The notes below the pieces were generated by a model. That model had not been told where the DNA came from, ran no database searches, and worked only from the letters and a program-made list of their open reading frames with translations. A stretch of DNA of 64,000 nucleotides, from assembly GCF_003113895.1 (NCBI RefSeq), contig NZ_BDUD01000002.1:310001-374000 (forward strand). Reading direction: 5' to 3'. Position 1 is the first letter of the stretch, and every line of letters begins with the position of its first letter. This document shows positions 11,202 through 47,157 of the stretch, in pieces. The position numbers and the translations under genes were made by a program. The DNA is from Nostoc commune NIES-4072. Its GTDB lineage: Bacteria > Cyanobacteriota > Cyanobacteriia > Cyanobacteriales > Nostocaceae.

Positions 11202-11974
11202 AATAATTTCTCCAGCCCTTTAACAATTTTTTTTAGGATTGATAAAGCTGGATGCTTAGGATTAAAGATTGCCAGAGGAACATTTTCTTCAGCAGCATCA
11301 GCAAAAGCAGTAGATCGAGGAATTGGGTCATAGACTATCCCAACCTGTGACAGTTGTTCTTGAATAGCTAATAGTGTTCGTTCATCTTGGCTATTACGTG
11401 AATCAAACATCGTTGGGATAAACCCAGCAATTTTTAACTTTCGATTTGGAAGAGACTTAACGCGTGTTACTGTATTTAAGAGTAATTCTGTCCCCAAGAA
11501 TGCCTTGTATTGCGTCTGGATCGGCACTAAAACGTGAGTTGATGCCACTAAACTGATATAAGTAAGAATGCCTAAACTAGGGGGGCAGTCAATCAAAATA
11601 AAATCATACTGTTCGCTTACAGGTTCCAAAGCATATTTAAGACGTAAATCACGCATATCTGCTACTACTAACTCTAATTCAGCTGAAGTCAGATCCTGAG
11701 ATGACGGAACAAAATCCATCCCATGAATTTCTTTAAGAATTGGTAGTGCTTCCTGATCAATCACTGCATTATAAATGGTTTTTTCTTGGGATTCAGGCGC
11801 AATTCCCATAAAGTTAGTAAGTGAAGCTTGAGGATCTATATCAATTAAAAGAACTCGGTAGTGATGCTTGGTTTTAGCAGGCTTTAATTGTGCTAAGTGA
11901 TAACCAAGATTAATCGCTAGAGTGGATTTCCCAACTCCACCAGCTTGATTAAATAAACAAATAATAAGGCTCAC
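11198..11974 (-). CDS. parA: ParA-family partition ATPase
   Basis: 258 aa. The deviant Walker A motif NQAGGVGKSTLAINLG is at about residues 9-24, DIDPQASLT at about 45-53 and the Walker B-like IDCPPSLGILTY at about 127-138. This is the Soj/ParA type without an N-terminal helix-turn-helix (type Ib-like length), so autoregulation probably rests on ParB or another protein. GTG start at 11974. It drives plasmid segregation by ATP-dependent binding to the nucleoid. Confidence 0.95.
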   Translation of the reverse strand: MSLIICLFNQAGGVGKSTLAINLGYHLAQLKPAKTKHHYRVLLIDIDPQASLTNFMGIAPESQEKTIYNAVIDQEALPILKEIHGMDFVPSSQDLTSAELELVVADMRDLRLKYALEPVSEQYDFILIDCPPSLGILTYISLVASTHVLVPIQTQYKAFLGTELLLNTVTRVKSLPNRKLKIAGFIPTMFDSRNSQDERTLLAIQEQLSQVGIVYDPIPRSTAFADAAEENVPLAIFNPKHPALSILKKIVKGLEKLL

Positions 11975-18611: not shown

Positions 18612-21600
18612 TTATCCCAAGATTTCAATCACAGCCGCGAGAATAGCTGGTGCTTTGTCTGAAACCGGAATGAATACCCGCTTTTGCCAGTTGATGATCT
18701 CGGTGAAGCAACCCACAGCTAAGAGTCGCTCTGCCAGTGAGATAGCATTAACCAGTTCTATGCGAGGTTCACCAGCAATGAAAGAACGTCGCAAGGTTAC
18801 GCCACCCGGTAACTGCTGGGAATAGCCTTCGTTTAGCACTAAAGAGACTAACTCCTGTGGGCTTAACAGCTTATCCTTCAGTCCGAGTTGTTCAGCCACC
18901 GACTTAATATCATTAGCATTCACCACCCGACCGAGAATCTTTTGTCCATCGCTGGTTTGCAAGCGGAATACTCGACTATTCTGCTGTGGTAGGATTTTCC
19001 AGATGGGTAGGAGAATACCAGTTACCAAATGCAGGTAATCGGTTGTGAACTTGGGTAATTCGTCTACTTCTGTAGACCATGCAGCAGTAAACGCATCAAT
19101 AGAAACTTGCCCCCATGTGGAAGATTCCAAGTCTTGGATTGGTAGGCGAGTTTCTTTCTGTGGGCGAATCAGCAAAACTCTTGGGACAATTCCACCCTCA
19201 GAGTCGAATAGACTGTGAGTTGGAATTGTTATCGCCGCACGACCTTTCTCATTCACCATGAATTGCCCTTGGTACTTGGCAGCAAACTCAACCATCTCAA
19301 TATCCGTTTTGATGTTGTTCTTCTGAACTCGCTCAATTTTGAGGTAGTTGGTGACGCTACCTGTGGCAGGGTGTGTATAAACTGCTTCCTGGCTTTCGAT
19401 GGTAAAACGTTCAGCCCGGAGTGTCTCTACACCCATCTCATAGACCCCTGCCGCGATCGCTGCTTCAATCTGCTGGCTCAAGAGTAATTCAAACCTCTCG
19501 AAAATCACGTTTTGCATATCAATTCGTAGAGCCAGTAGTCGATTGAGGAATTGCCGCAATGGGGGCAAGTCGATTTTCATCCCGCCTTCGTTAGAGGTTA
19601 AGCTAAGTCCCGTCATTTGCTCGAACTTTCCTAAAGGCACTTCATAAAATCGACCTTGGTATATTTGTCTGAATAACTCATACAGGGCGTGTTCTGCATA
19701 GTTAGACTCCAGATTATCCTTAGCCTCAAAGATCCCATTGCCACCTGTTTGGCGTTGACCACGAGTAAGAGCGCCCAAGCTATCCAGCCTTCGGGCAATA
19801 GTGCTGATGAATCGGCGTTCACCTATAACGTTCGTCGTGACTGGTCTGAACACGGGCGCAGATGCTTGGTTGGTTCTGTGCGATCGCCCCAACCCCTGGA
19901 TTGCATTGTCTGCTCTCCAGCCGGCTTCAAGCAGGTAGTGCGATCGCCGCCGCCGATTCACAGCGTTGAGGTCAGCATGGTAACTGCGACCAGTACCACC
20001 AGCATCAGAGAAGATGAGAATTTGTTTCTCGTCCGCCATGAATGCAGCAGTTTCAGCAATGTTAGCGCCGGAACCACGCGAATCAACGAATAAACGTCCA
20101 GATTCATCTTTTAACACCCGTTTGCTACGACCAGTAACTTCAGCCACTTGCTTGTTACCGAAGTGCCACAGCAATTGTTCTAATGCACCAGGGATTGGGT
20201 CAAGACTTGCTAACTTATCGACTAAGGCATCTCTCAAAGCTACGGCTTCAATAGAAATAACTGGAGAGCCATCGGCATCAAAGACTGGCTCGGATCTTTC
20301 TTCTCCATCAACGCCAGAATGGATGGAATGAAGATGAATGGGGAAAGCACTCATCAAGTAGTCCATCACATATTCGCGTGGAGTTAGGTCAAGATTGAGA
20401 TCCTTCCATTCGGAAGCAGGAACTTCATCAAGTCGTCGTTTCAAAAGTTCTTCATTAGTCGAAACTATTTGAATGACAATTGCAAGACCTTGGGCTAGAT
20501 CCTGCTCAATCGCTTTAATTAACTGCGGACATTTCATGCCAGTCAACAGATGATTGAAGAATCTTTGCTTATGCGACTCGAACTGAGACACTGCGCTCAT
20601 CTTCGCAGCACGGTTGTAAGTCTTGTCACCAGAGATATTACAAGCTTCCAGGGCTTTATCTAAATTATGGTGAATAACACCAAAAGCATCGGAGTAGCTG
20701 TTATAACTCCGTTCCTGCGTGGGCGTTAACTCAATTTCTAGAGTCTGATACTCCACCCCCTCAAACGAGAGACTCCGCGCCAGATATAGTCCCAAAGCCT
20801 TGAGATCCCTGGCTACGACTTCCATCGCGGCGATACCACCGCCCTCAATGGATTCCACAAAATCCTCACGGGAGGTAAATGGGAAATCTCCAGTCTGCCA
20901 AAGTCCCAGACGATTGGCGTATGAGAGATTCGAGACTTTAGTTGCACCAGTAGCAGAAACGTAGATAACCCGTGCTGAGGGCAGTGCGTTTTGCAACCTC
21001 AGCCCAACAATGCCTTGCTGGGATGCTGCAACCATGCCAAGTTTGCCCTCTTGAGCCATTGCGTTACCCATCGCGTGGCACTCGTCATAGGCGATCGCTC
21101 CCTCAAAATCCTTACCTGCCCATTCAACAATTTGCTTGAGCCGACTTTTACCGTTATGAAGAGAACGTAGAGTTGAGTACGTGCAGAACAGAATGCCTTG
21201 GGTGAAGGGTATTGGATCGCCAAGCTTAATGTTGCTCAGGTCGATGATGTCGCGCTCAGTACCACCCAGCGCACACCAATCTCTACGGGCATCTTCAATT
21301 AAGGCAGAACTTTTGGATACCCAGATTGCTTTTCTTCGTTCCTGACACCAGTTGTCGAGGATGATTCCTGCACATTGTCTTCCTTTCCCCGCGCCTGTCC
21401 CATCGCCTAAGAACCAGCCACGACGAAATTTTATGGCATTTTCTTCGCCAGTTGCCGCTACAGTCACATTATCCCATGAATCATCGACAATATAAGACCC
21501 AGAAAGAAATTCACCGTGCGCCTGACCTGCGTAAATAACGCTTTCGAGTTGTGCTTCAGATAACAATCCTTGTGAGACAATGTTTCGCGGGAGATGCGGT

Positions 21601-22889
21601 TTGTAAGTGGGTGGTGGTGGCGAGACAAGCGCTAGGGCTGCACTCTCACAGAGTAGCGAGGGATGAGGTAAAGCATCTTTAATTCTGATTCGTTGTGGGC
21701 GATAGGTTTCATATAAAGTATCTTTGAGTCCTTCTGTAGCAGACCATTCGATAACCTCATACTCCAACACTACTATGTCGTCTGGAAGAAAGGAAACAGT
21801 TTCTGGTTGTGCAACTGTAGTACGTTTTGGCAATTGAACAACTTTTGCTCTCGCAGCAGCTTTGATATCTGAGCGTTCCCACGAAGACCTCTGTGGCAAT
21901 TGCTCAATCAACGCCAGTATTTCAGGCAGATCCAAAGTTTCAGTAATACAAGGGATTTCGTTGGAGTCAGCCGGAACTTTGTCGATCACTGTAATCCGAG
22001 TGTCGATTTGTGTACCATGCTTTGAGTACACCTTGCCGTTAATCCCAACAGATAGTAGAACTCGCGCAAAATCCTGCCACTTAACAAAAGTCTCTCGCCA
22101 GCTTGGGTTAGCCGGAGAAAACCAGTTGGCTGTGATTGTTACCAGCCGTCCACCGTCAGCCAGTCTTTGCAATGCCGAGTTGATGTGGCTCTTAGTTGCG
22201 TCGGGGTTGCGACTGTTGATTTTGGGAGATGCAGAGAAAGGTGGATTCATCAGCACAACTGAGGGCTGAGTCTTGCCAACCAGATAGTCGTTAATCTGTT
22301 CCGCGTTTACTGAGAATAGCGGTGTACCTGGAAACAACCGACGCAGAATCTTACTTCTATCGGGTGCAAGCTCGTTGAGCATCAGACTTGCACTGTGCAA
22401 TTTAGCCATTTGTGCCAATAGACCAGTTCCGGCACTTGGCTCCAGAATCAAATCAGTAGCTTGTATAAATCCTGCTTTGGCTACCAGAAATGATAGCGGC
22501 AGAGGGGTGGAGAATTGCTGAAGCTGTACTGATTCTTCACTACGGCGAGTATGCGTCGGACAAAGGGCTGTTAATTCTTCTAATTGTTGCACAACCACTT
22601 GAGGTTGTTGTGATAAAATCTTAATTCCCAGATGACGCAGATATAATATTTGCGCTACTTCCACAGCTTCGTAAGCGTCTTTCCACTGCCATGCACCAGA
22701 CGCGGCAGTGCCTAGAAAGTAGCGATTCATCTGGGAAGAAACAGTTTTCGTAGAGAGAGGGCGATTATCTATTAAAACTTTTGCAAGCTCTTGGGCAACA
22801 TTAATAACTGACTGCCCATAATCGATTACTGTTTGCAAATCGAATAAAGAACCTTGAGTGAAAAGTTGCTGTACCATTGCATCACTCAC
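18612..22889 (-). CDS. DNA methylase-Strawberry notch helicase fusion protein
   Basis: 1425 aa. The N-terminal part is a Rossmann methyltransferase-like domain: LEPSAGTGLLAQMA (motif I) near residue 149 and MNPPFSAS (NPPF, as in N6-adenine methylases) near 213. Next comes a Strawberry-notch-type SF2 helicase: Walker A GDGTGAGKGRQCAG near 493, DECH (YDECHAMGNA) near 600, and the SBNO C-terminal domain with RSHRTNQASAPVFR and SNYAEHALYEL. Such giant proteins occur on phages and plasmids and are thought to modify or protect DNA. GTG start at 22889, with an ATG four codons in. Single gene with its own terminator. Confidence 0.9.
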   Translation of the reverse strand: MSDAMVQQLFTQGSLFDLQTVIDYGQSVINVAQELAKVLIDNRPLSTKTVSSQMNRYFLGTAASGAWQWKDAYEAVEVAQILYLRHLGIKILSQQPQVVVQQLEELTALCPTHTRRSEESVQLQQFSTPLPLSFLVAKAGFIQATDLILEPSAGTGLLAQMAKLHSASLMLNELAPDRSKILRRLFPGTPLFSVNAEQINDYLVGKTQPSVVLMNPPFSASPKINSRNPDATKSHINSALQRLADGGRLVTITANWFSPANPSWRETFVKWQDFARVLLSVGINGKVYSKHGTQIDTRITVIDKVPADSNEIPCITETLDLPEILALIEQLPQRSSWERSDIKAAARAKVVQLPKRTTVAQPETVSFLPDDIVVLEYEVIEWSATEGLKDTLYETYRPQRIRIKDALPHPSLLCESAALALVSPPPPTYKPHLPRNIVSQGLLSEAQLESVIYAGQAHGEFLSGSYIVDDSWDNVTVAATGEENAIKFRRGWFLGDGTGAGKGRQCAGIILDNWCQERRKAIWVSKSSALIEDARRDWCALGGTERDIIDLSNIKLGDPIPFTQGILFCTYSTLRSLHNGKSRLKQIVEWAGKDFEGAIAYDECHAMGNAMAQEGKLGMVAASQQGIVGLRLQNALPSARVIYVSATGATKVSNLSYANRLGLWQTGDFPFTSREDFVESIEGGGIAAMEVVARDLKALGLYLARSLSFEGVEYQTLEIELTPTQERSYNSYSDAFGVIHHNLDKALEACNISGDKTYNRAAKMSAVSQFESHKQRFFNHLLTGMKCPQLIKAIEQDLAQGLAIVIQIVSTNEELLKRRLDEVPASEWKDLNLDLTPREYVMDYLMSAFPIHLHSIHSGVDGEERSEPVFDADGSPVISIEAVALRDALVDKLASLDPIPGALEQLLWHFGNKQVAEVTGRSKRVLKDESGRLFVDSRGSGANIAETAAFMADEKQILIFSDAGGTGRSYHADLNAVNRRRRSHYLLEAGWRADNAIQGLGRSHRTNQASAPVFRPVTTNVIGERRFISTIARRLDSLGALTRGQRQTGGNGIFEAKDNLESNYAEHALYELFRQIYQGRFYEVPLGKFEQMTGLSLTSNEGGMKIDLPPLRQFLNRLLALRIDMQNVIFERFELLLSQQIEAAIAAGVYEMGVETLRAERFTIESQEAVYTHPATGSVTNYLKIERVQKNNIKTDIEMVEFAAKYQGQFMVNEKGRAAITIPTHSLFDSEGGIVPRVLLIRPQKETRLPIQDLESSTWGQVSIDAFTAAWSTEVDELPKFTTDYLHLVTGILLPIWKILPQQNSRVFRLQTSDGQKILGRVVNANDIKSVAEQLGLKDKLLSPQELVSLVLNEGYSQQLPGGVTLRRSFIAGEPRIELVNAISLAERLLAVGCFTEIINWQKRVFIPVSDKAPAILAAVIEILG

Positions 22890-26666: not shown

Positions 26667-27941
26667 GTGCAGCGTCTAAAACGCTCAAAATCTAAGCCTG
26701 ATAAAGGTTTGGTAATAGCGATCGCAAAGCTTGTGAGAAATCCGGGTTGGAACATCAAGCTGGATAACTATATTCAAGCCAATCCCAATTGCATCATCGC
26801 CACCGCCCATGTAGACTCATTCCCTATAGACCTGCCGCTAGAACCGAACATCAGGGAACCCAACCGCAAAAGCGCGACCTACAGACAAATCTTCGACTCG
26901 CTGACGACCGAACCTGCAAAATTCTTCTCTCGCCACAGTGGAATCGTCCTGTCAGCTAATATTGTTAAGCCCAACAGAAACAAAACTGAACTCGAACTGG
27001 AAATTTTAGAAGCTTCCGAGGGCGGTAGCGATGGGATTATCAACGGTGGGCATACAGTTTTAGCATTTGAGCAAGCGAAAAATTATAAATATGACCTAAC
27101 CCAAGCCAGAGTAAAAGTTACGATTCACATCGGACTGACTGAAGAATCAGCACTAGATATAGCCTTGGCTTCAAATTCCACAACGCCAGTAGATTCTCGC
27201 TCCAAAGTCAACGCCAGGGGTGATTACAAATTTCTCAAGCAGTATTTAGCTGACTTAGAACACAAAGAAGATAGAAAATTCCGCATCGCTTATTATCAAA
27301 ACCAAAGCGGCGCTCCCAGAAATGCCCAGTGCAATGTCACCCATTTGCTCAAGCTCCTTTACTGCCTCGACAGAAATAAATACAACCCGGACGGCAATAA
27401 ACGAACCAAACACCCAGCAGGGATGAGTCTTCCAAGTAACATCACAGATGCAGAAAGAGAAAGATTAACCACCTTACTGCCTCTCTTGACTCATGCTTTG
27501 TGGATAGAGCAAAGACTCTACGAAATAATCCAAGAATATATCAGCAACCCCAGAAGAAAGGGTGCTAACGATTTAGCATCAATTGATACACGTAAAACGA
27601 CGTTGTTGCCTGACAGCAAGTATTCATTCGGGTTTGGTGCGCCAACTGACCTTGCACTACCGATAATCGCGTCCTATCGGGTATTTCTAGATAAAGATTA
27701 TAAATGGATTCTGCCGTTTAACGAATTCGCTGAAGATTTTCTCCAACATCTGTGGAATAACTACTTCCGCAAATACTTGGTGTCAGAGAAAACAGCAGGG
27801 AATACAGTCGGCACAAAAATCAGCCGCAATCAAGAGATTTGGGAAAGTTTGTATATCTCAGCGCAGAGTTATCTAAATCAGCACTTGGTGAAAATGGTCA
27901 AATCCGGGAAATCTAAAGAATTAAAGCTAACACCAGGCTAA
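26667..27941 (+). CDS. AIPR-like protein (abortive-infection phage-resistance family)
   Basis: 424 aa, GTG start. The centre has IINGGHTVLAFEQAK (about residues 128-142), like the NGxxT box of AIPR proteins. Around it are FFSRHSGIVLSANIVK, then the helical SKVNARGDYKFLKQYLADL and a long helical C-terminus. AIPR proteins were first described as abortive-infection phage-resistance factors, but many members have no tested role. It lies next to an Rpn-type nuclease, which fits a small defence patch. Match by eye, so moderate. Confidence 0.6.
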   Translation: MQRLKRSKSKPDKGLVIAIAKLVRNPGWNIKLDNYIQANPNCIIATAHVDSFPIDLPLEPNIREPNRKSATYRQIFDSLTTEPAKFFSRHSGIVLSANIVKPNRNKTELELEILEASEGGSDGIINGGHTVLAFEQAKNYKYDLTQARVKVTIHIGLTEESALDIALASNSTTPVDSRSKVNARGDYKFLKQYLADLEHKEDRKFRIAYYQNQSGAPRNAQCNVTHLLKLLYCLDRNKYNPDGNKRTKHPAGMSLPSNITDAERERLTTLLPLLTHALWIEQRLYEIIQEYISNPRRKGANDLASIDTRKTTLLPDSKYSFGFGAPTDLALPIIASYRVFLDKDYKWILPFNEFAEDFLQHLWNNYFRKYLVSEKTAGNTVGTKISRNQEIWESLYISAQSYLNQHLVKMVKSGKSKELKLTPG

Positions 27942-28107
27942 AACTTAAATAGGAACAAAGGAGCGGTAAATAATCGCTCTTACATTACTCTGGTCAAAAA
28001 AATCTTAGCCAAGTTTTAAAAAAGAGATAGAAACTGGGTTTTGAGCTTCATACGTTGAGTTAGTGTATGCTTGTTAATGTATAAATCTAATTCTATTTTA
28101 CGTTCAA

Positions 28108-28548
28108 ATGTCTATTCCTGAAATTACCCAAAAACTTTTAACAGCCAAAGAAAACAAGGGGCTGACTTTTGCAGAATTAGCAGAAGTTCTACAATGTAAC
28201 GAAGTATGGATTGCCTCTGTAATTTATCGCCAAGCGAGTGCTTCACCTGAAGAAGCAAAGTTATTAGTTGATACATTAGGGCTTGATATAGACGATGCTA
28301 AAGAACTGAGTAAATATCCGATAAAAGGTAGTGATGCTATTGTTCCAACTGACCCTTTTATTTATCGGTTCTATGAAATTATGCAGGTGTATGGACTTCC
28401 ACTAAAAGATGTAGTTCAAGAAAAGTTTGGTGATGGAATTATGAGTGCTATTGATTTTACCTTGGATGTAGACAAGGAAGAAGACCCAAAAGGCGAACGC
28501 GTGAAAATTGTTATGTCAGGTAAATTCTTGCCTTACAAAAAATGGTAA
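28108..28548 (+). CDS. cynS: Cyanate hydratase (cyanase)
   Basis: 146 aa, full length. Cyanase turns cyanate and bicarbonate into ammonia and CO2 (via carbamate), both detoxifying and supplying nitrogen. An N-terminal helix-turn-helix-like domain is followed by the catalytic domain. Active-site residues are visible as R87 and E90 ([12 protein letters not shown]) and S113 ([11 protein letters not shown]), corresponding to R96, E99 and S122 of the Escherichia coli enzyme. ATG start at 28108. No cynABD transporter genes nearby, so it probably works on internally formed cyanate. Confidence 0.96.
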
Positions 28549-29167: not shown

Positions 29168-29503
29168 TTAATCCTCTTTTTGAACTAGCAATTTCCCAGA
29201 CACCCCAGCCGTAAAACCCAGCCCAATCGCCGCTACAGTGACGCTGGGTTTAATAAACAAAGTCGCAATTCCGATAACTGCACCCCAAAGACAGCCATAA
29301 CAGCAAGCAATAATCAACTGATTTTTGGGTTTAGCCCTTTCGTCCGATATGGATTGATGGATTATGGCATAATCTTCAAGCTCATTGATAATTTCTAGTA
29401 AAGAAGCGCCGTACTGTTTTTCTAGGCGTTCAATAGCCAATCTGTCTGCCTTAACTGAGCTGATAGCTAGTTTTTGTAAAGAATAAGTTAATTTATCGCT
29501 CAT
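29168..29503 (-). CDS. Small two-TM membrane protein
   Basis: ATG at 29503 (MSDKLTYSLQKLAI) chosen because GGAAG lies upstream; 29527 is an alternative. About 111 aa: N-terminal helical cytoplasmic part (ERLEKQYGASLLEIINELED) and two membrane segments at the end (IIACCYGCLWGAVIGIATLF and VTVAAIGLGFTAGVSGKLL). It lies downstream of the ATPase gene on the same strand and may be the last gene of that cluster. An array of 11-bp repeats separates them. Confidence 0.6.
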   Translation of the reverse strand: MSDKLTYSLQKLAISSVKADRLAIERLEKQYGASLLEIINELEDYAIIHQSISDERAKPKNQLIIACCYGCLWGAVIGIATLFIKPSVTVAAIGLGFTAGVSGKLLVQKED

Positions 29504-29615
29504 TTTTAGACTTCCCGATGCTTCCACATTCTGGAAAATGTTTAGAAAAAATTAAAACTTACTGGAGAGACAAAAAGACTCTATTTTTCAGCCGTACTTG
29601 GAAATGTAAGAATAC

Positions 29616-29665: not shown

Positions 29666-31582
29666 TTACTGCTTAACATTAAAAACGCTGAAACCATCTT
29701 TTTCATTTCCGCACAATCGGTTAGTGTCAATCAATTGTGATAGGGCATTTCTCAAGTAAAGAACACTCTTTTTCTCGTCGCCCCACTTGCGGCTGTTTCT
29801 GATAGCTGCAAAAGAAGTTGGAGGACTAGCAGTAGCCGCAACGATCGCCACAATCTGTTCTAAATCAGCCTCAGAAATACTATTTTCTTCTACTTCCAGA
29901 AATTCCACTTCTTGATAAGGCTTTGAAAAAATGGACTCCAGATGATTAACTGCGTCTGATGGGGCAATTTTCTCCCCTCTGGGTATGACTGCCCTTTCAT
30001 GCTGTTGAACTAATTCTGGGAAGAATTGAAGTAATGTTCTTGCTGGATCTGGTTGCCCATTGCCTGGGTGCAAATGGGTCTTTAGCCATTGGGGAATCAT
30101 GCCCAAGTTGCCACCGCTAACAGGTTCTCCAAAGTTATTAGGGTTGGCTTTGAAATATTCTCCACTAGCAACATTCATTTTGCGTAGACCACCAGCGCTA
30201 ACCGCTTGAGCTACACAGCCAATAAAGTTAACCGATTGCTTAAAGGTATCTGCCAGCCCAGCCGTAGCTTTACCGACCACGCTTGTCAGGTTAGAGCCAT
30301 GCAGCACGATAATTAATGTACCACCCGACTTAGCGAAGCGAGAAAGTAAATATTGAATCGCCCAGGTGCGATCGCTCTCCTCCAACAATGACAGCAACCG
30401 CATTGCCTCATCAATTACTAGCAGTAAATTTTTATGGGAGTAAGGTTCGCTTCCATCTAAACCCTTAAGAAATTTCAATAAATCACGAGCGACGAGTTGA
30501 TCAGCCCCATCCGCATCTTTATCCGGGTACTTAAGGGCAGAGGTTAAGTTGCAGGCAAAGGGGTAAACGTCCACCCCAGCAGTAAAGTATTGGGTATTCA
30601 ATCCGGGGTCAAGTGCAGTTGATAATGTTGCTAAGATTGCTGCTAAGGTTCCCTTGCCACCTCGCTGAGTACCAGCGATCGCAATGACTTGGGAACTCAT
30701 CATATCCTCTACTTGGAATCCACTTTTCGTTAAAGCAGCGATCAGTGCGTTTGCCCTATTAGTCAGAGGGATATTAATTATAGTCTCTGGTACAAGCCCA
30801 TCAGAGGAAGATGGTTGTAACTCTGTAGGTCTAGAAAGCTCCGCAGCTTGGTTCATCTTCCCAATATCTACCTGTGGCGATTGAAACTGTTTGATATCTA
30901 CGGTCGGTGGTAACTGGGCTTGAGCCTGTGCGATGGCACTTATCTCCGAGCGATTCACCCGGCTGTCAATTGTCACATCCTGTAAATGAAGAGCCATGCT
31001 TTCATAAGTGGGTAGCTGACGACCCTTAAGCTTGCCAAACCAGCCAAACATCCAACGATAAGCATAAAAACGTTTTCCTGGTTCAACTTGCGTTAAATAC
31101 TGGCCAATATTTTCAAATTCAGCATGAAGAAAGGCGTACTCTTCAGCCTCGTGTCGTTCTAGGAATTTAACACTATTAGCAAGATGATCCGCCTGATAAT
31201 TGCTCCGATTGTCATAGTCACCAGCACGAGCTAGAGCGTCTATAAAATTACCACGCACAAAAGGCAAGGGGGCGATCTCCTTGGTTCTGTTGGAATGTTC
31301 GACAACAAACCATAGCCACGCAGCACCACCAACTAAACCACCAACTAGTGCCAAAGGGTTAACCGCATAGCAAACCGCTCCGATCCCAGAAGCCAACAAA
31401 CCAAGTACACGGGTCATGTCTGCTTCATTCTCAGATGCCCGTGCCATTTCAAATAATCCATCTTTTCTCTCTTGCAGCCATTGGGCGATATTGCCAGCTT
31501 CCAAGTGAGACAAGCTAGGATATGATTCGCGTAAATGTTCAGTTTCTTTAGTTGTAATTTTCGGGATATTATTACTTTGCAT
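29666..31582 (-). CDS. Membrane-anchored P-loop ATPase (FtsK/HerA/VirD4-like)
   Basis: 638 aa from the ATG at 31582, chosen for the strong AAGGGAGG site; an upstream TTG at 31672 would add 30 basic residues and overlap the previous gene. Two membrane segments (about residues 57-95, VLGLLASGIGAVCYAVNPLA ...) are followed by a RecA-like ATPase with Walker A GTQRGGKGT near 303 and Walker B LLLVIDEAM near 385. The overall layout (TM hairpin then P-loop) resembles FtsK/HerA DNA pumps and VirD4/TraD coupling proteins. It is the largest gene of a leftward cluster of membrane proteins. Which DNA or protein it moves is unknown. Confidence 0.75.
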   Translation of the reverse strand: MQSNNIPKITTKETEHLRESYPSLSHLEAGNIAQWLQERKDGLFEMARASENEADMTRVLGLLASGIGAVCYAVNPLALVGGLVGGAAWLWFVVEHSNRTKEIAPLPFVRGNFIDALARAGDYDNRSNYQADHLANSVKFLERHEAEEYAFLHAEFENIGQYLTQVEPGKRFYAYRWMFGWFGKLKGRQLPTYESMALHLQDVTIDSRVNRSEISAIAQAQAQLPPTVDIKQFQSPQVDIGKMNQAAELSRPTELQPSSSDGLVPETIINIPLTNRANALIAALTKSGFQVEDMMSSQVIAIAGTQRGGKGTLAAILATLSTALDPGLNTQYFTAGVDVYPFACNLTSALKYPDKDADGADQLVARDLLKFLKGLDGSEPYSHKNLLLVIDEAMRLLSLLEESDRTWAIQYLLSRFAKSGGTLIIVLHGSNLTSVVGKATAGLADTFKQSVNFIGCVAQAVSAGGLRKMNVASGEYFKANPNNFGEPVSGGNLGMIPQWLKTHLHPGNGQPDPARTLLQFFPELVQQHERAVIPRGEKIAPSDAVNHLESIFSKPYQEVEFLEVEENSISEADLEQIVAIVAATASPPTSFAAIRNSRKWGDEKKSVLYLRNALSQLIDTNRLCGNEKDGFSVFNVKQ

Positions 31583-31650
31583 AAATGCCTCCCTTGGTAA
31601 ACGTTGCCGCCCTTTTTTTATAGTTATTGGTTTTTTGGGCGGTTTCCGTT

Positions 31651-32358
31651 CTAATCCTTTGTCAGTCGCCAAATAGCGAACCCAATTTCACCCGCCATCA
31701 TTGTGCCGATGTTAAACAATATGCAGCCCAGAATTATGAAGGGGGCTGTAAATTCAAATGGGTTACGAGCTGCAAAAGTGGTGACAATATCGAACACCCA
31801 AACCGCAATCACAACCAGCCCTGCGCTAGAGCGATCGCGTGTACCTGCGGTCTTGTAGTCCGCCCAGAGTTGTCCTACCAAATCAATCTTGCCACTAGGC
31901 TTGGTTTCAAGCTCATAAACCATGTGGTCTTGAAGTTCCCGCCTAGCTGAATCTGGGTTTTTACCGCGTAGGGCGTGGGCTTCAATTACTTGCACACCTA
32001 CAGAAATCATGAATGCCAAGTAAAAAAACGGGTTGAACAGTGCAAACGGCACATTTAGCCAATTCCAAGTCGGCTCAAACCAGGGAAAAACAGGGGGGCC
32101 TTGAAAGATTAATTGCCAAGTTGAATCAGCACTAATCATGGAACCACCGATAAATAAAATCCCACCTACCAAGGCACGACCTGCACCACCATTAGCAACA
32201 AACTGATTAACAATCGCGGCGGCAGCCCGAATGGGTAAGCCGACAATCATCACAACAGCCTTGGCACAAAAATCTATAATTTCACCAAGCGATCGCTTCT
32301 TATCTTTGGGCTTACTATCGCTGTTGCTAGTGCTGCTATTTTCTGCACCATTACCCAT
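31651..32358 (-). CDS. Multi-pass membrane protein, 235 aa
   Basis: Charged Ser/Lys N-terminus followed by at least four hydrophobic segments: AVVMIVGLPIRAAAAIV, GRALVGGILFIGGSMIS, FALFNPFFYLAFMISVGVQV, and GLVVIAVWVFDIVTTFA with FIILGCILFNIGTMMAG near the end. The start has an AAGGAGG site and overlaps the upstream stop as TAATG, so it is translationally coupled to the 136-aa gene. No recognised family; it could be a membrane platform for the ATPase encoded next. Confidence 0.75.
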   Translation of the reverse strand: MGNGAENSSTSNSDSKPKDKKRSLGEIIDFCAKAVVMIVGLPIRAAAAIVNQFVANGGAGRALVGGILFIGGSMISADSTWQLIFQGPPVFPWFEPTWNWLNVPFALFNPFFYLAFMISVGVQVIEAHALRGKNPDSARRELQDHMVYELETKPSGKIDLVGQLWADYKTAGTRDRSSAGLVVIAVWVFDIVTTFAARNPFEFTAPFIILGCILFNIGTMMAGEIGFAIWRLTKD

Positions 32359-32768
32359 TATTTCCTCCTTACTGGTTTGATATTTTGAACACTTTTACAA
32401 ATCCCTTTATCTTTGTGCTTCCACTTCCAAATTCCTTCTTCAATCCGCCCAATACACCTACCCGTTGCGTCAAAAACATCAATAATCTCGTCATCTTGAT
32501 AAAGGGTTGTGTCTGGTCTGGGATTGCGTTTAGCACTATCAAAGTAATTGGTAATTCTCAACTTGCGACTTGTGGGCATCACTCCTGCCTCATATAAGGC
32601 ATCACTGGTTTTTGCCCGTTCTTCTATGCGGGAACGTTCTAATTCTTCTGTAGCTTTTAGCCGTTGAAGCTCTGCATAAGCCCCCAACTTGGGTACTAAA
32701 GGGATGATTACAGGCAACATGCAAATGCCAACACCAGCCAAAGCTAAGTACAGTTGTTTCTTATACAT
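32358..32768 (-). CDS. Signal-anchored hypothetical protein, 136 aa
   Basis: One N-terminal membrane segment (LYLALAGVGICMLPVIIPLV, about residues 6-26), a charged helical region (LQRLKATEELERSRIEERAK), then a small beta-like domain (DEIIDVFDATGRCIGRIEEG, IWKWK). First gene after the TGAAAC-hexamer region, so that region is its promoter. Family unknown. Confidence 0.7.
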   Translation of the reverse strand: MYKKQLYLALAGVGICMLPVIIPLVPKLGAYAELQRLKATEELERSRIEERAKTSDALYEAGVMPTSRKLRITNYFDSAKRNPRPDTTLYQDDEIIDVFDATGRCIGRIEEGIWKWKHKDKGICKSVQNIKPVRRK

Positions 32769-32815
32769 GAGACTGCTGTGCTATAGCGCGTTCTTAGACA
32801 TATCTTTAATGAGGC

Positions 32816-33077
32816 GTTTCATGTTTCACGCTGTTTCACTACCCTGAAACACTGATGAAACCGTTGAAACAGTTTCATGAAACAGTGCTGTGAAACAGTT
32901 CTATGAAACACTCCCGCCCATAAAGGCTTTCGAGCAAGGAATTGTCTGGTGTTTCATGTTTCACGTTTCATGTTTCATGCTGGGAGAATGCTGTTTCATG
33001 GTGTTTCACGCCCTGAAACATTGATGAAACCGTTGAAACGTTTCATGAAACAGTTCTGTGAAACAGTTGGATGAAAC
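32816..33077. repeat. Dense array of 23 GTTTCA/TGAAAC hexamers in two duplicated blocks
   Basis: By eye 11 GTTTCA and 12 TGAAAC in 262 bp. Two blocks (about 32829-32920 and 32989-33089) keep the same order and nearly the same spacing of 9, 11 and 13 bp. Each has an exact 12-bp dyad GTTTCATGAAAC (32872-32883 and 33040-33051) and ends in CACTC-CGCCCAT. The hexamer is half of the chromosomal parS consensus TGTTTCACGTGAAACA, but no full parS is present. Candidate origin, centromere or operator upstream of the membrane-ATPase genes. Confidence 0.85.
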
Positions 33078-33178
33078 ACTCTCGCCCATCACTTTCAGAG
33101 GGTGTAGTGTTAGGAAAATTGAATTTTAGTGCATCAAATAGAACAACATCTTCTTCCTTCCCCACACCCTTTTCCCTA

Positions 33179-33451
33179 TCATCTTGATGCCCGTCTCAGA
33201 AATGTCAATCCTGCACCAACAAGCAATCCCAAGGGAATGAATATCCCGCTACCAATTAATCCAGTAGCGACAACGCTACTAACGATATATGCACTACCAC
33301 CTAAAGCGCCAATAACTGAAGTAGCAAACAATCCCGTACTGAGAATATCCATGTCCTGATTTTTCTTTTGATGAGTTAATAGCTCTTGAAGTAATCGGAT
33401 TTGGGCAACAATGGCAACAGTTTCATTTTGGATTTGTAACAATGCCGCCAC
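33179..33451 (-). CDS. Small two-TM protein, 90 aa
   Basis: GTG start at 33451. Helical N-terminus (LQIQNETVAIVAQIRLLQEL) and two membrane segments (LSTGLFATSVIGALGGSAYI and VVATGLIGSGIFIPLGLLVG), ending FLRRASR, a basic cytoplasmic end. It lies 14 bp downstream of the 191-aa gene on the same strand, hence probably one transcript. Family unknown. Confidence 0.65.
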   Translation of the reverse strand: MAALLQIQNETVAIVAQIRLLQELLTHQKKNQDMDILSTGLFATSVIGALGGSAYIVSSVVATGLIGSGIFIPLGLLVGAGLTFLRRASR

Positions 33452-33465
33452 TGTTTTATAAGCTT

Positions 33466-34041
33466 CTAAAATCGGATCTGTGTCCCCATTGAACTGACTC
33501 TCTCTCGTAACGAATTGAGTCGTACTTTGAGTTGTTCTTTTTTTCGGATCGACTCCCCCAACCTTGTTGAGGCTTCTTCTGCCAAATTAATCAAACTATG
33601 ATCTATCTCGGTAATCTGATTATCAACTTCCAACATGGATTGTTCAGCAAAGGCATCCAACACCGTCCCTTTGGCTCCAATCAAGGATTCCATGAACAAT
33701 AAAGCTCCGGTGACACCAGTTGATGCACCCAAAATCTTAGATTGCTCATTTTGAACAGCTATAGCACCAGAAATAATCTCTTTATCAGCCGCAGTTAACT
33801 TGTATGAGGCTTGTTGAATTGCTTCATCAGCTTTGGTGATTGTGGCTTTGGGTATATCTGCTACAGGTGATTGTTGAGGCTGTAATCTCTCACTATTAGT
33901 AATATCTTGGAATCTAGCTAAAATCTCCTCTGGAACTAGTGAATCGACCGTCCATTTTTGCTCTGGATATTGACGGCGCAGCTCATCAACTACTTTTCCT
34001 GGTACTTTGTTGAGAGCTTGTGCAAATTCTTTAACGATCAT
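33466..34041 (-). CDS. Hypothetical helical protein, 191 aa
   Basis: N-terminal part may be a small DNA- or protein-binding helix bundle (VKEFAQALNKVPGKVVDELR). The centre has a glycine-rich hydrophobic stretch (SKILGASTGVTGALLFMESL), and the C-terminus is a coiled coil (SLINLAEEASTRLGESIRKK). GGAG site 10 nt before the ATG; 3 bp after the previous stop. Second gene of the cluster. No family recognised. Confidence 0.65.
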   Translation of the reverse strand: MIVKEFAQALNKVPGKVVDELRRQYPEQKWTVDSLVPEEILARFQDITNSERLQPQQSPVADIPKATITKADEAIQQASYKLTAADKEIISGAIAVQNEQSKILGASTGVTGALLFMESLIGAKGTVLDAFAEQSMLEVDNQITEIDHSLINLAEEASTRLGESIRKKEQLKVRLNSLRERVSSMGTQIRF

Positions 34042-34044
34042 TAT

Positions 34045-34347
34045 TTAGGCTCCTAAAAACTTTTCGGGGTGATTTTTTAATTCAATTGCCACCTTCTTCA
34101 AAGAACCCTTGGCTAAAACGTAACTTCTAATTCTTTGAAGCACAGGTAAATGCCAGTTTGTCAACTTTGCTCGTCCGTTTAGCCCTCCGTTATCTTCGTC
34201 CCGAAAATCCTCAAATTCTGGCAGGTACAAAGAAGCTAAGTCTAAATACTTTTGGAACTGTCTAATTCCAACTGATGGCTCTAATTGTCTGGCTGCCTCC
34301 TCTCGTGTTAACAATTGTTCAACTACACAGCTTCCCTGAATTAGCAA
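34045..34347 (-). CDS. Putative small DNA-binding regulator, 100 aa
   Basis: TTG start at 34347 with an AGGAG site upstream. Contains a MerR-like or Xis-like helix-turn-helix start (LLTREEAARQLEPSVGIRQF) and a Lys-rich C-terminus. It is the first gene after a six-unit array of 11-bp repeats lying immediately upstream of its start. This makes it a candidate protein that binds those repeats and regulates its own cluster. Confidence 0.6.
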   Translation of the reverse strand: MLIQGSCVVEQLLTREEAARQLEPSVGIRQFQKYLDLASLYLPEFEDFRDEDNGGLNGRAKLTNWHLPVLQRIRSYVLAKGSLKKVAIELKNHPEKFLGA

Positions 34348-34502: not shown

Positions 34503-34712
34503 CTAACTTCTTGATAAGTAACTATGAATCGCTCCAAAATGGTTAAGTATATACGGCTTTGGTTCGACAAATCTGGAACTACTTTCATCAGCTAACCAGT
34601 TTTTTAGTGCCTCGACTGAGTAACCTGACAAACGGCTCATTTGGTAAGTCGAAAAATTATGAACTCTTTTAAATTCTTTAGGATGTATTGGCTTAATACC
34701 AATATTTTTCAT
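34503..34712 (-). CDS. Small helix-turn-helix regulator, 69 aa
   Basis: FSTYQMSRLSGYSVEALKNW has the spacing of a helix-turn-helix (helix, SG turn, helix), followed by WLADESSSRFVEPKPYI. GGAG site 10 nt before the ATG. Own terminator downstream. Probably a plasmid copy-number or transfer regulator; target unknown, though the neighbouring 11-bp array is an obvious candidate. Confidence 0.65.
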   Translation of the reverse strand: MKNIGIKPIHPKEFKRVHNFSTYQMSRLSGYSVEALKNWLADESSSRFVEPKPYILNHFGAIHSYLSRS

Positions 34713-37028: not shown

Positions 37029-37256
37029 TTAGATTTTTTCTGTTTGCTGTTCGGTCATCTGCTCCACCTCATCAATTGCATTCACTATTTCTCCCAAAAT
37101 ATTAAAAGCATTGTTTAACACCACACCATTCGAGGTAGAAAAGTACTCGGACGATTGAAGCCTACGATAATCCTTACTACTACCCAAAAGCTGCAACGTA
37201 TATTGACAGCCTTGTAAAATAGTCCGAATTTCTGAAGTAGTTAATTTGATTTCCAT
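37029..37256 (-). CDS. Small hypothetical protein, 75 aa
   Basis: Start set at 37256 (MEIKLTTSEIRTILQGCQYT) because a strong AGAAGGAGAAATAGTA precedes it; the longer frame would overlap the neighbour. Helical: TILQGCQYTLQLLGSSKDYR then ILGEIVNAIDEVEQM. 14 bp after the previous stop. No known family. Confidence 0.6.
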   Translation of the reverse strand: MEIKLTTSEIRTILQGCQYTLQLLGSSKDYRRLQSSEYFSTSNGVVLNNAFNILGEIVNAIDEVEQMTEQQTEKI

Positions 37257-37270
37257 TACTATTTCTCCTT

Positions 37271-37594
37271 CTAAAACTTGTCTTGACGAATACTGAGACT
37301 TGCCCCAACCAAAGCGCTGCCAAAAAAGCCAGAGAATCCAATTAGCATTGCACCTAAGCAAATACTTTTCTGCTGCTGCCAGTAATGAGAACTCGTAGCA
37401 ATCTCCATTCCCCAGCAGCCCATCGCCCCTACTCCTGCAAATCCGGTAAAAAGTAAAGATACAATTGCAGTTGTTTCTATGATGCGATCGAGAAGAATTC
37501 TGGGGTTGAATCTTTTTCGAGTCCGGCGTAGAACTAATTTATTACGAGTATTTGAAGGCAAAGATGATTGATAAGTAGCTTTCTGTGTTTTCAT
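37271..37594 (-). CDS. Small two-TM membrane protein, 107 aa
   Basis: Basic N-terminus (KLVLRRTRKRFNPRILLDRI), membrane segments ETTAIVSLLFTGFAGVGAMG and SICLGAMLIGFSGFFGSALV, short basic tail. It overlaps the previous gene by 4 bp (ATGA), so it is translationally coupled. Unknown function. Confidence 0.6.
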   Translation of the reverse strand: MKTQKATYQSSLPSNTRNKLVLRRTRKRFNPRILLDRIIETTAIVSLLFTGFAGVGAMGCWGMEIATSSHYWQQQKSICLGAMLIGFSGFFGSALVGASLSIRQDKF

Positions 37595-42879: not shown

Positions 42880-45800
42880 ATGTCAGGTTTGGGTTTTACT
42901 CATTGGGGTGCTTTAGCGACTATCGCTTTCGGTGTCAGCTTTTGTACCATTGATTATGCAAACGCTCAAATTACTCCAGATAGCACTTTACCAAATAACT
43001 CTAGCGTCACAAGAGAAGGTAACACGTTTAACATTACTGGAGGAACTCAAGCTGGTGGTAATTTGTTTCACAGTTTTGGTGAGTTTTCTGTGAATACTGG
43101 TGGCACTGCTTCTTTTAATAATGCTCTAGATATTCAAAATATTATTGGTCGAGTAACAGGTGGGTCAGCTTCTACTATTGATGGGATAATTCGCGCTAAC
43201 GGCACGGCTAACCTGTTTTTAATAAATCCCAACGGGATTATTTTTGGTCAGAATGCCCAATTGAATATTGGTGGTTCTTTTGTTGGGACTACAGCGAATG
43301 CACTGCAATTTGAAAATCGAGGATTTTTTAGCGCTACTGAGAAAAATATCCCTTCCCCCTTGTTGACTGTTAATCCTTCAGCATTATTGTTTAATCAAAT
43401 TAATCAAAACGCAGCGATTCAAAATAGCTCAGTTGCATTTGCAGGAACAGATCCGGCAGGTATTGATGCATTTGGTTTACGAGTACCAGATGGAAAAAGT
43501 TTGCTGCTGGTGGGTGGTAATGTCAGGGTGGATGGGGGACGATTAAATGCTTTTGGTGGACGAGTGGAATTAGGAGGATTGGGCGAACCTGGTAGTGTAG
43601 CACTGGGTGTAGATGGCGATAATCTCAGCTTGAGATTTCCTGAGAATATTGCGCGAACAGATATATCTTTTACTAATAATGCTCGTGTTTTTGTAGAAGC
43701 TGCTGGTGGCGGTAATATTGTAGTCAATGCTAGAAATCTAGACATATTGAGAGGAAGTCTTTTAAGTGCTGGTATTGGAAAAGATTTGGGGACACCTCAA
43801 ACAATTGGGGGAGATATTACGCTTAATGCTACCGGGGAAATCAAAGTTGCATCTCGCAGTGCAGCTGTTAATTATGTGAAAACGGGGTCACTTGGCAATG
43901 GGGGCAACATTACTATCGATTCTGGTTCCTTCTCATTACGCGATCTCGCTGGACTTCAAGCCTCAACTTCTGGACAAGGGAATGCGGGGAATGTGACACT
44001 GCGAACGCGAGATGCTATTTCTCTTGCAGGTAATGCCTACATCCTTAGCACCGTGCAATCAGGAGGTATAGGTAAAGGCGGCAATATCGACATTAATGCT
44101 GCAACACTATCACTATCGGATGATGCTCAACTTGCTGCCTCAACTTTTGGACAAGGGAATGCGGGGAATGTCACAGTGCGGACGCGAGATGCTATTTCTC
44201 TTGCAGGTAATGCCTACATCCTCAGCACGGTACGAGGTATAGGGAAAGGTGGCAATATCGATATTAATGCTGCAACACTATCACTATCGGATGATGCTCA
44301 ACTTGCTGCCTCAACTTTTGGACAAGGGAATGCGGGAAATGTCAATGTTAATGTTACTGGCGCTGTTGATATTGCTGGGGGTAAAAACAGTTTAAGTGAG
44401 ATTTACAGCCTAGTGGGAATGGGGGCAGTTGGCAATGGAGGTAACATTACTATCGATTCTGGTTTATTCTCATTACGCAATGGCGCTCGACTTGTTGCCT
44501 CAACTTTTGGACAAGGGAATGCGGGGAATGTCACAGTGCGATCTCTTGATGCTGTTTCTCTTGCAAATAATGCTTCCATCCTCAGTACAGTGGAATCTGG
44601 GGGTGCAGGTAAAGGTGGCAATATCGATATCAATGCCGCAACACTATCACTATCTAATCGCGCTGAACTTGCTGCCTCAACATTGGGACAAGGAAATGCG
44701 GGGAATGTCACAGTGCGATCCCTTGATGCTGTTTCCCTTGAATATGCTGTCATCTTCACCACGGTGTCAGCAGGAGGTGTAGGTAAAGGTGGCAATATCG
44801 ACATCAATGCTGCAACACTATCACTATTTAATGGCGCTCAACTGCAAACCCTCACTGGTGAAGCATTTGCTACCCAACCAGCAGGACGGGGGGATGCAGG
44901 GAATGTCAATGTGAATGTTACTGGCGCTGTTGATATTGCTGGGGAGAAAAATGGTATTAACAGTGCGATTTTGAGTCAGGTGGAAACAGGAACAGTTGGC
45001 AATGGGGGTAACATTACTATCGGCTCTGGTTCCTTCTTGTTACGTGATCGCGCTAGACTTTCTACCTCAACTTATGGACAAGGGAATGCGGGGAATGTCA
45101 CAGTGCGATCTCGAAATGCTGTTTCTCTTGCAGATGCTACCATCTTCACCACAGTGGAATCAGGGGGTGTAGGTAAAGGTGGCAATATCGATATTAATGC
45201 TGCAACTTTATCATTAATTGATGGCGCTCAACTGCAAACCTTTACTCGTAGTGCATCTCCTACCCAGCCAACAGGACGGGGAGATGCGGGGAATGTCAAT
45301 GTGAATGTTACTGGTGCTGTTAATATCGCTGGGGAGAAAAATGGTTTTAACAGTGGGATTGCCAGCTCGGTGGAAACTGGCACAGTTGGCAATGGGGGCA
45401 ACATTACTATCTATTCTGGTGACTTCTCATTACGCGATCGCGCTGGACTTCAAGCCTCAACTCTTGGACAAGGGAATGCGGGGAATGTGACAGTGCGATC
45501 TCGAAATTCTGTTTCTCTTGCAGATAATGCTACCATCTTCAGCACGGTGGAATCAGGGGGTGTAGGTAAAGGTGGCAATATCGATATCAATGCTGCAACA
45601 CTATCACTATTTAATGGCGCTCAACTGCAAACCCTTACTCGTGAAGCATCTGCAACAGCGCCAGCAGGAAGGGGCGATGCGGGGAATGTTGATGTTAATA
45701 TTACTGGCGCTATTGATATTCTTGGGGAGAAAAATGGTTTTTTTAGTGGGATTTCCAGCCGGGTGAGTACGGGGACAGAAGGTAATGGAGGTAACATTAC

Positions 45801-47157
45801 TATCGATTCTGGTTCCTTCTCGTTACAAAATGGCGCTTTTCTTGCTACCTCAACTTCGGGACTTGGAAATGCAGGGGATGTGACAGTGCAGGCACGAGAT
45901 GCTGTTTCTCTTTCAAATAATGCTTCCATCTTTAGCACGGTGGAAGCAGGAGGTGTCGGTAAAGGTGGCAATATCGACATCAATGCTGCAACGCTGTCAC
46001 TAATCAATGGCGCAAGCCTGTTAACTTTTACTCGCGGTACATTTGCTAACCAGCTAGCAGGACAAGGGGATGCGGGGAATGTCAATGTTAATGTTACTGG
46101 CGTTGTTGATATTACTGGGGAGAAAAATGGTTTTCCCAGTGGGATTAGCAGCAAGGTGGAAACTGGGACAGTTGGCAATGGGGGTAGCATTACCATCGAT
46201 TCTGGTTTATTCTCATTACTTGATGGCGCTCTACTGACTGCCGAAACACTTGGACAAGGTAATGCAGGCACAATTAAAGTTAATGCTGCTGATTTTCTTA
46301 CCATTTCTGGTAAAAGTTCAAACTTTAACAGTGGCTTGTTTGTTAACTCCCAAAGTCCGACGGGTACTGCCGGAGATATTATCGTCACCTCACCTAGAGT
46401 TACCTTAGACAACGGTGGCATACTTAACGCCCAATCTGCATCAGGTAACGGTGGCAACATCAACTTACAAACTGATTTACTGCTTCTGCGTCGTGGCGCT
46501 TCCATTTCCACCACCGCAGGCACAGCCCTAACTGGTGGTAATGGTGGCAACATTAATATTGATGCCCCATCGGGCTTCATTGTTGCTGTCCCAAGCGAAA
46601 ATAGCGATATTACTGCGAATGCTTACACAGGCAGTGGTGGAAGAGTAGATATTCGAGCCATTGGTATCTATGGCATTCAACCCCGCTCTAACCCAACTTC
46701 TCTGAGTGATATTACCGCTAGTTCTGAATTTGGTGTAAACGGTACTGTAGAACTTAACACGCCGGATATTGACCCTAACAGTGGCTTAGTCAACCTGCCA
46801 ACAGTACCAGTTGACACCCAAGTAGCACAGACCTGTCAAGCTGGTGGAAATTTAGCTAAGAGCAGTTTTACAATCACTGGACGCGGCGGCTTGCCACCTA
46901 ACCCAGGCGATGCCCTCAACACTGATGCAGTGAAGGTAGATTTGGTGAGTCTTAATCCCAGCACCAGAGAAGACAAGAGTCCACCTGTTACCATCAAACC
47001 TACTACTACACCAGCACCGATTGTCGAGGCTACTAGATGGCGAACTAATACTAAAGGTGAGATAGTACTTACAGCCAACGCATCTAATGGCGCTCCTCAC
47101 AAAAACTGGCAGCAGTCACCAGTCACTTGTAGTTCTGCAAAATCTGCTTCCAATTAA
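42880..47157 (+). CDS. Two-partner-secretion exoprotein (filamentous haemagglutinin type)
   Basis: 1425 aa. Signal peptide (about residues 1-29, cut after YANA) and TPS secretion domain (residues 30-150) with LFLINPNGIIFGQNAQLNIG, the hallmark of TpsA proteins. Then about eight copies of a roughly 110-130-aa unit (GNGGNITIDSGSFSLRD ... GQGNAGNVTVRSRDAVSL ... GGNIDINAATLSL), a right-handed beta helix. The C-terminus is Pro/Thr-rich (TIKPTTTPAPIVEATRW). It is exported through an outer-membrane TpsB pore, but no tpsB gene is in this window. Good GGAGG ribosome site. Confidence 0.93.
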   Translation: MSGLGFTHWGALATIAFGVSFCTIDYANAQITPDSTLPNNSSVTREGNTFNITGGTQAGGNLFHSFGEFSVNTGGTASFNNALDIQNIIGRVTGGSASTIDGIIRANGTANLFLINPNGIIFGQNAQLNIGGSFVGTTANALQFENRGFFSATEKNIPSPLLTVNPSALLFNQINQNAAIQNSSVAFAGTDPAGIDAFGLRVPDGKSLLLVGGNVRVDGGRLNAFGGRVELGGLGEPGSVALGVDGDNLSLRFPENIARTDISFTNNARVFVEAAGGGNIVVNARNLDILRGSLLSAGIGKDLGTPQTIGGDITLNATGEIKVASRSAAVNYVKTGSLGNGGNITIDSGSFSLRDLAGLQASTSGQGNAGNVTLRTRDAISLAGNAYILSTVQSGGIGKGGNIDINAATLSLSDDAQLAASTFGQGNAGNVTVRTRDAISLAGNAYILSTVRGIGKGGNIDINAATLSLSDDAQLAASTFGQGNAGNVNVNVTGAVDIAGGKNSLSEIYSLVGMGAVGNGGNITIDSGLFSLRNGARLVASTFGQGNAGNVTVRSLDAVSLANNASILSTVESGGAGKGGNIDINAATLSLSNRAELAASTLGQGNAGNVTVRSLDAVSLEYAVIFTTVSAGGVGKGGNIDINAATLSLFNGAQLQTLTGEAFATQPAGRGDAGNVNVNVTGAVDIAGEKNGINSAILSQVETGTVGNGGNITIGSGSFLLRDRARLSTSTYGQGNAGNVTVRSRNAVSLADATIFTTVESGGVGKGGNIDINAATLSLIDGAQLQTFTRSASPTQPTGRGDAGNVNVNVTGAVNIAGEKNGFNSGIASSVETGTVGNGGNITIYSGDFSLRDRAGLQASTLGQGNAGNVTVRSRNSVSLADNATIFSTVESGGVGKGGNIDINAATLSLFNGAQLQTLTREASATAPAGRGDAGNVDVNITGAIDILGEKNGFFSGISSRVSTGTEGNGGNITIDSGSFSLQNGAFLATSTSGLGNAGDVTVQARDAVSLSNNASIFSTVEAGGVGKGGNIDINAATLSLINGASLLTFTRGTFANQLAGQGDAGNVNVNVTGVVDITGEKNGFPSGISSKVETGTVGNGGSITIDSGLFSLLDGALLTAETLGQGNAGTIKVNAADFLTISGKSSNFNSGLFVNSQSPTGTAGDIIVTSPRVTLDNGGILNAQSASGNGGNINLQTDLLLLRRGASISTTAGTALTGGNGGNINIDAPSGFIVAVPSENSDITANAYTGSGGRVDIRAIGIYGIQPRSNPTSLSDITASSEFGVNGTVELNTPDIDPNSGLVNLPTVPVDTQVAQTCQAGGNLAKSSFTITGRGGLPPNPGDALNTDAVKVDLVSLNPSTREDKSPPVTIKPTTTPAPIVEATRWRTNTKGEIVLTANASNGAPHKNWQQSPVTCSSAKSASN
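43900..46260 (+). repeat. Tandem coding repeats of the TPS exoprotein
   Basis: Units of about 330-390 bp share nearly identical blocks such as GGTAAAGGTGGCAATATCGA and GACAAGGGAATGCGGGGAAT. High DNA identity, not only protein similarity, indicates recent expansion or gene conversion, so copy number may vary between strains. Confidence 0.85.

Follow-up and report, generated by a model that had tools for sequence, protein, structure and literature searches.

An array of TGAAAC/GTTTCA hexamers in Nostoc commune NIES-4072 stands at the head of an operon that ends in a membrane ATPase gene. Comparison with relatives establishes, at the level of sequence, that the array is conserved, that it occupies a fixed place in its gene neighbourhood, and that it is tied to the C-terminal domain of the ATPase. 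Our best explanation as a whole, held with about even confidence, is that it is a conserved centromere-class iteron array, kin block by block to an array on small plasmids. A centromere-class origin of the array, taken by itself, is probable. We use the label centromere-class because the small-plasmid block sits in the place of parC, before genes for a ParM-fold protein and a parR-like protein.

Array and gene neighbourhood in the window

The window is the whole stretch of DNA analysed (64,000 bp; bases 310001–374000 of contig C2, which comprises 806,781 bases). The 23 hexamers claimed in the initial annotation are located at exactly its coordinates, 32816–33077; its strand counts were interchanged, the plus strand carrying 12 TGAAAC and 11 GTTTCA. 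The hexamers occupy 138 of the 262 bases of the array, with start-to-start steps of 7, 10, 12, 11, 9, 7, 6, 13, and 13 bp in the first block in coordinate order, a step of 47 bp between blocks, and steps of 7, 7, 7, 21, 10, 11, 11, 9, 6, 6, 13, and 13 bp in the other block. The duplication into two blocks, also claimed there, holds: both blocks keep the step run 11-9-(7 or 6)-6-13-13 and the dyad GTTTCATGAAAC. No other hexamer cluster in the window is as dense as this array, whose 23 copies compare with 2 to 4 in the densest 262-bp stretch when the window was simulated 40 times under a first-order Markov model. The window-wide excess of the hexamer is mild (62 copies versus 50.2 expected, standard deviation 6.8; 4 of 100 shuffles reach 62).

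Table 1. Features of the array and its operon neighbourhood (window coordinates)
Feature	Coordinates	Strand	Remarks
Array block 1	32951..33077	-	13 hexamers; first in operon orientation
Linker between array blocks	32910..32950	-	Conserved in other two- and three-block arrays
Array block 2	32816..32909	-	10 hexamers; ~47 bp upstream of C136 start
C136	32358..32768	-	Small protein with N-terminal hydrophobic segment; first gene after array; no Pfam match
TM235	31651..32358	-	Several hydrophobic segments; no Pfam match
ATPase668	29666..31672	-	N-terminal membrane helices, P-loop motor (model residues 266-526), C-terminal HHH-EE domain
Predicted C-terminal winged helix of ATPase	29684..29872	-	Residues 572-634 of the model, with the IRNSRKW motif; candidate reader of the array
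D90	33179..33451	-	Small hydrophobic protein upstream of array; large-plasmid type only
E191	33466..34041	-	Conserved with large-plasmid type
F100	34045..34347	-	Conserved with large-plasmid type; possibly DNA-binding (by eye)
G69	34503..34712	-	Conserved with large-plasmid type; possibly helix-turn-helix (by eye)
h119	29168..29527	-	After ATPase in most large-plasmid loci reaching that far

Homologues of ATPase668 begin ~30 residues further in. Elsewhere in the window, genes for ParB (PF02195, E = 2.4e-31) and ParA (PF13614, E = 3.7e-47) lie in a row at 10278–11974; they form a separate, canonical partition pair of the contig, 21 kb from the array. Two open reading frames of exactly 1425 amino acids each run in opposite directions (18612–22889, minus strand; 42880–47157, plus strand), the first encoding a Strawberry-notch-type helicase, and the segments 26667–28548 and 47933–49936 contain genes for an AIPR-family protein, a cyanate lyase, and elongation factor G.

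Related arrays and their three arrangements

Searches with the ATPase as query yielded 48 loci from species genomes, together with 53 records of plasmids, every one of the latter Nostocales by name. Matches occurred in 19 of 388 genomes drawn from the order, 17 of the 19 belonging to the window's own family. A cluster of at least 4 hexamers is present at 32 of the 48 genome loci; together with 4 plasmid records and the window, this gives 37 arrays at ATPase-found loci, all within the same gene neighbourhood. Three arrangements are seen: the large-plasmid or W type (17 loci including the window), with the order G69-F100-E191-D90-array-C136-TM235-ATPase and some genes missing in some loci; the P type (14 loci), with an array of 7 to 10 hexamers followed by M395-R64-S74-T85-C136-TM235-ATPase; and the H type (6 loci), with an array of 7 or 8 hexamers (24 in L025) followed by T85-C136-TM235-ATPase. 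C136, TM235, and the ATPase are thus common to all three. W arrays mostly contain 20 to 35 hexamers (11 in L013) and span up to ~490 bp. In operon orientation, with < for GTTTCA and > for TGAAAC, the block plan is <-<-<>-<-<-<->->->->->, present as one block in the P type and as two or three in the W type. By our reading of the neighbour map, the 16 genome loci that lack an array comprise 12 that stop at a contig end before the array place and 4 broken copies (L043, L047, L049, and L050).

A search with the core pattern GTTTCANCGGTTNCATCA matched 37 of 217 family genomes, versus a single match in one genome for the reversed-pattern control, and all 30 loci fetched from the 37 genomes lie beside C136/TM235/ATPase genes or a ParM/R64 pair. 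Across 41 blocks from the 16 other W loci, with the hexamers placed as in a single block of the window, hexamer positions are 98.0% identical and spacers 85.7% identical (Mann-Whitney p = 4e-9). Judged by sequence, the hexamers are under purifying selection, and the difference in identity lends good support to the earlier proposal that the array binds protein cooperatively. A complete W module with 20 hexamers is present on a chromosome-size contig of 8.2 Mb (G468:C1; L226, 9441–9700), where a plasmid centromere would not be needed; this locus fits poorly with a pure plasmid centromere. A distant S74 homologue (43%) lies at window positions 37029–37361, upstream of G69, and a similar one lies upstream of several W loci; these are perhaps remnants of a par operon.

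On each of contigs C6 and C11 of the same genome, this array is represented by one block. On these small sister plasmids, the block lies directly upstream of the ParM-fold gene M395, which is followed by the parR-like gene R64, and so occupies the place of parC. R64 is likely a ribbon-helix-helix protein, with weak matches to that fold (E = 0.04–0.045) in two of the four family members scanned; single-sequence PDB searches with the ParM-fold protein gave matches at chance level only. Within the genome, M395 matches are confined to C6 and C11. Nine ParM-type queries found no match in the window, and a search of its contig found no R64. A search for M395 in 20 genomes of another family found none. 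A second ParM type (parM′) occurs at seven loci, six with a TGAAAC array and one (L096) without; the C-terminus is IRNSRKW at L020, L027, and L031, the three of the six array loci at which it was read, and is different at L096. Upstream of parM′ in L020, a further array with the repeat TAGCCA occupies 2338–2617, so that such a plasmid has two repeat arrays.

The repeat unit differs by lineage. Specifically, arrays upstream of M395 homologues are built of GTTCCA/TGGAAC in the Tolypothrix plasmids L093 and L094; GTTGCA/TGCAAC in L110 and L144; CCGGGTA in L118, L119, and L122; GTGACA in L120; TGACAG in L121; TGTCGC in L145; TTCTCAG in L146; and TGTTTC in L142. TGTTTCA units appear again in L159 and L158, and no clear array is present in the stretch read at L156, L111, or L127. 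The first strand of R64, RLNYNVP or near (L054, 27809–28003, and homologues), is almost constant although the units differ widely. At L147, TGAAAC units go with an R64 strand of the TGGAAC-plasmid kind; L148 has R64 as in the TGGAAC plasmids, but a TGAAAC-type ATPase C-terminus together with TGAAAC units. Between the array and the start codon of the M395 homologue, seven loci with differing units (L110, L119, L120, L121, L142, L145, and L146) share an element similar to GTGTGACAGTTGCGA, perhaps a promoter or leader.

Candidate readers and alternative roles of the array

We compared ATPase C-termini with arrays at 33 loci (18 with the motif IR[NK]SR[KR]W, 14 with other C-termini, and 1 with the ATPase cut off). 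The array is present at all 18 motif loci, which represent 17 distinct plasmids, L037 and L167 being one plasmid; L094, with six GGAACA and only four perfect GTTCCA, was counted as an array. None of the 14 loci with other C-termini lists TGNAAC among its three densest hexamers (L191 has six GGCAGA). In the motor tree, L172, which has an array, is sister to L095, which has an unrelated C-terminus and no array (support 98/100); the tree also pairs L148 with L096 and L149/L161 with L097/L098/L100, though these pairings depend on long branches. At the fourth position after the W of the motif, seven ATPases whose arrays have TGAAAC or nGAAACA units carry K, and the four whose arrays have TGGAAC or TGCAAC units carry N, a correlation that represents a handful of independent cases; among the 120 homologues listed, this residue is K in 35, N in 6, and S, P, or E in one each, and 76 are without the motif. 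By these comparisons the array is tied to the ATPase C-terminal domain. In most loci the association could be one of linkage with the parM type, broken only by W loci and by H or parM′-type loci.

The nature of the domain is predicted from a structural model. The ATPase model (pLDDT 78.8, pTM 0.48) shows membrane helices and, at residues 572–634, an HHH-EE order (pLDDT ~75–93) that we read as a predicted winged helix; no Pfam winged-helix family matched in 62 ATPases. Among the matches listed, the best structural matches of the predicted motor are FtsK, EccC, TrwB, and TcpA, tied with RecA-type ATPases. A Foldseek search with the motor found nothing at E ≤ 0.001, no Pfam family of FtsK/coupling-protein motors scored above cut-off in the window ATPase, neither the ATPase nor its alignment matched anything in single-sequence PDB searches, and a PHROGs search gave only weak matches.

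In 11 of the 14 genomes with a large-plasmid array, no R64 was detected at E ≤ 0.1, so another reader is to be expected for the window's array and R64 is unlikely as its sole reader. From the sequence association and the model, the ATPase C-terminus is our leading candidate for the reader. The converse case also exists: 5 of the 10 genomes searched have M395 and the array without the ATPase, one of them (G406, L158) with TGTTTCA units. In these five genomes there must be another reader, most simply R64, and the array can work without the ATPase.

A role as operator only, in which a repressor would set expression of the ATPase operon and the array would serve neither segregation nor transfer, is unlikely. 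The array does always head the operon, ~47 bp before C136 in the window, and parC sites often double as operators. However, 20 to 35 hexamers over up to ~490 bp far exceed the needs of an operator, no soluble repressor gene is common to all three arrangements, and a promoter scan of 32700–33500 gave a single weak site, a number not above that in shuffled sequence.

Somewhat less likely still is a parC of ParMRC that acts in trans, or a hitch-hiking or decoy centromere, bound by R64 of the two small co-resident plasmids. C6 and C11 share the hexamer and the block plan with the window and have them upstream of a ParM-fold gene and R64, and the variation of units seen here resembles the variation of parC units by ParMRC family described in PMC9426499. 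Against this reading stand the W genomes without detectable R64, together with G344, G378, and G384, in which neither M395 nor R64 was found and the arrays are intact (these three are not independent of L014, L041, and L010). The R64 strand, moreover, hardly differs between lineages with very different units.

The initial annotation had offered an origin, a centromere, or an operator; the centromere and operator options gain support, as the array heads the operon and, on small plasmids, precedes the ParM-fold gene, and the origin option does not. An origin with iterons is very improbable: on small plasmids the dense short repeats do have an SF3/D5 primase-helicase gene nearby, but that gene is separate and divergent, an SF3 query detected no such gene next to arrays of the large-plasmid type, the scanned neighbours (many without a Pfam match) include no recognised replication gene, and the module is present on the 8.2-Mb contig. 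Least credible are parS-like or half-parS sites for a chromosomal or plasmid ParB, even though the window contig encodes ParA and ParB and TGAAACA matches the greater part of a parS half-site: as the initial annotation stated, there is no complete parS in the array (no start position in 32701–33200 gives GTTTCACGTGAAAC with up to 3 mismatches), the genome has no TGTTTCACGTGAAACA, the consensus used for that search, at up to one mismatch, and homologous arrays use TGGAAC, TGCAAC, or quite different units. The half-parS link drawn there is not supported, and the resemblance of the hexamer looks coincidental.

Proposed mechanism and comparison with known systems

For the centromere-class array that we favour, we propose the following course. 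The array would have started as parC of the M395/R64 ParMRC family. On the large replicon, the parM/parR pair would have been lost (or was perhaps never present), the block would have been duplicated, and the array would have come to head the C136-TM235-ATPase operon. The reader would be the ATPase alone in the window type, and a ParR-like protein plus the ATPase where both exist. The putative winged helix of the ATPase would bind the TGAAAC/GTTTCA units cooperatively and so load the replicon onto a motor of FtsK/coupling-protein type, itself anchored in the membrane, that may anchor or move plasmid DNA at the membrane or septum, for segregation or transfer. The bound protein may also control the operon.

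A more speculative extension, to which we assign a low probability, is that C136, TM235, and the ATPase form a TraB-like double-stranded DNA translocase, with the array as its clt-like loading site, and that this translocase carries plasmids from cell to cell within a filament or from one filament to another. Such a system would be a ParMRC centromere fused to a membrane motor, with C-terminus and iteron co-evolving and swapped as a matched pair.

The literature searched contained no description of the array, and GTTTCATGAAAC turned up in two papers that are, by title, on other subjects. With the proposed mechanism, an unannotated plasmid module of heterocyst-forming cyanobacteria gains a testable scheme, in which a centromere-like array is combined with an actin-type segregation pair, exchangeable and sometimes absent, and with a membrane motor that varies at its C-terminus in step with the array. 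Should this motor be the reader of the array, a single site would unite plasmid segregation with DNA pumping, and the TGAAAC, TGGAAC, and TGCAAC sister lineages would constitute a ready-made specificity series. The array module could also serve as a marker and stability element for Nostoc vectors.

The closest known system on the small plasmids is type II partition (ParMRC). As with parC, the sister-plasmid array immediately precedes a ParM-fold gene, after which comes a small gene for a probable ribbon-helix-helix protein, and the unit sequence differs between families both here and in PMC9426499, where ParR proteins recognise only the parC of their own family. Unlike parC, the array has short units in both orientations and perfect dyads; unlike ParMRC, the window type has no parM or parR, and its array is part of a membrane-ATPase operon. 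Other actin-like systems of filamentous cyanobacteria, FcmB/FcmC and CorM/CorR, were found on the chromosome and concern cell-shape regulation or, by title in the case of CorM, cortical filaments, whereas M395 is mostly found on small plasmids, with an upstream array. ParM-type actins recruited to the chromosome are reported for Nostoc (PMC12645912).

On the side of the motor, the FtsK and coupling-protein ATPases (TrwB, TcpA) resemble the window ATPase in structure no more closely than RecA/DMC1-type ATPases do, the latter tying with them at a score of 11.3. The TraB protein of Streptomyces, which acts together with Spd membrane proteins, binds clt repeats of 8 bp, and spd genes often form one unit with traB (PMC12857230). 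The likeness is one of layout, with short cis-acting repeats next to an operon for membrane proteins and a membrane-anchored motor; the differences are that the hexamer is not the clt repeat and that the kinship of the ATPase with FtsK is structural only, tied with RecA-type folds. Finally, a precedent for a tie between ParM systems and transfer ATPases comes from plasmid R1, whose ParM binds the coupling protein TraD (PMC4949242).
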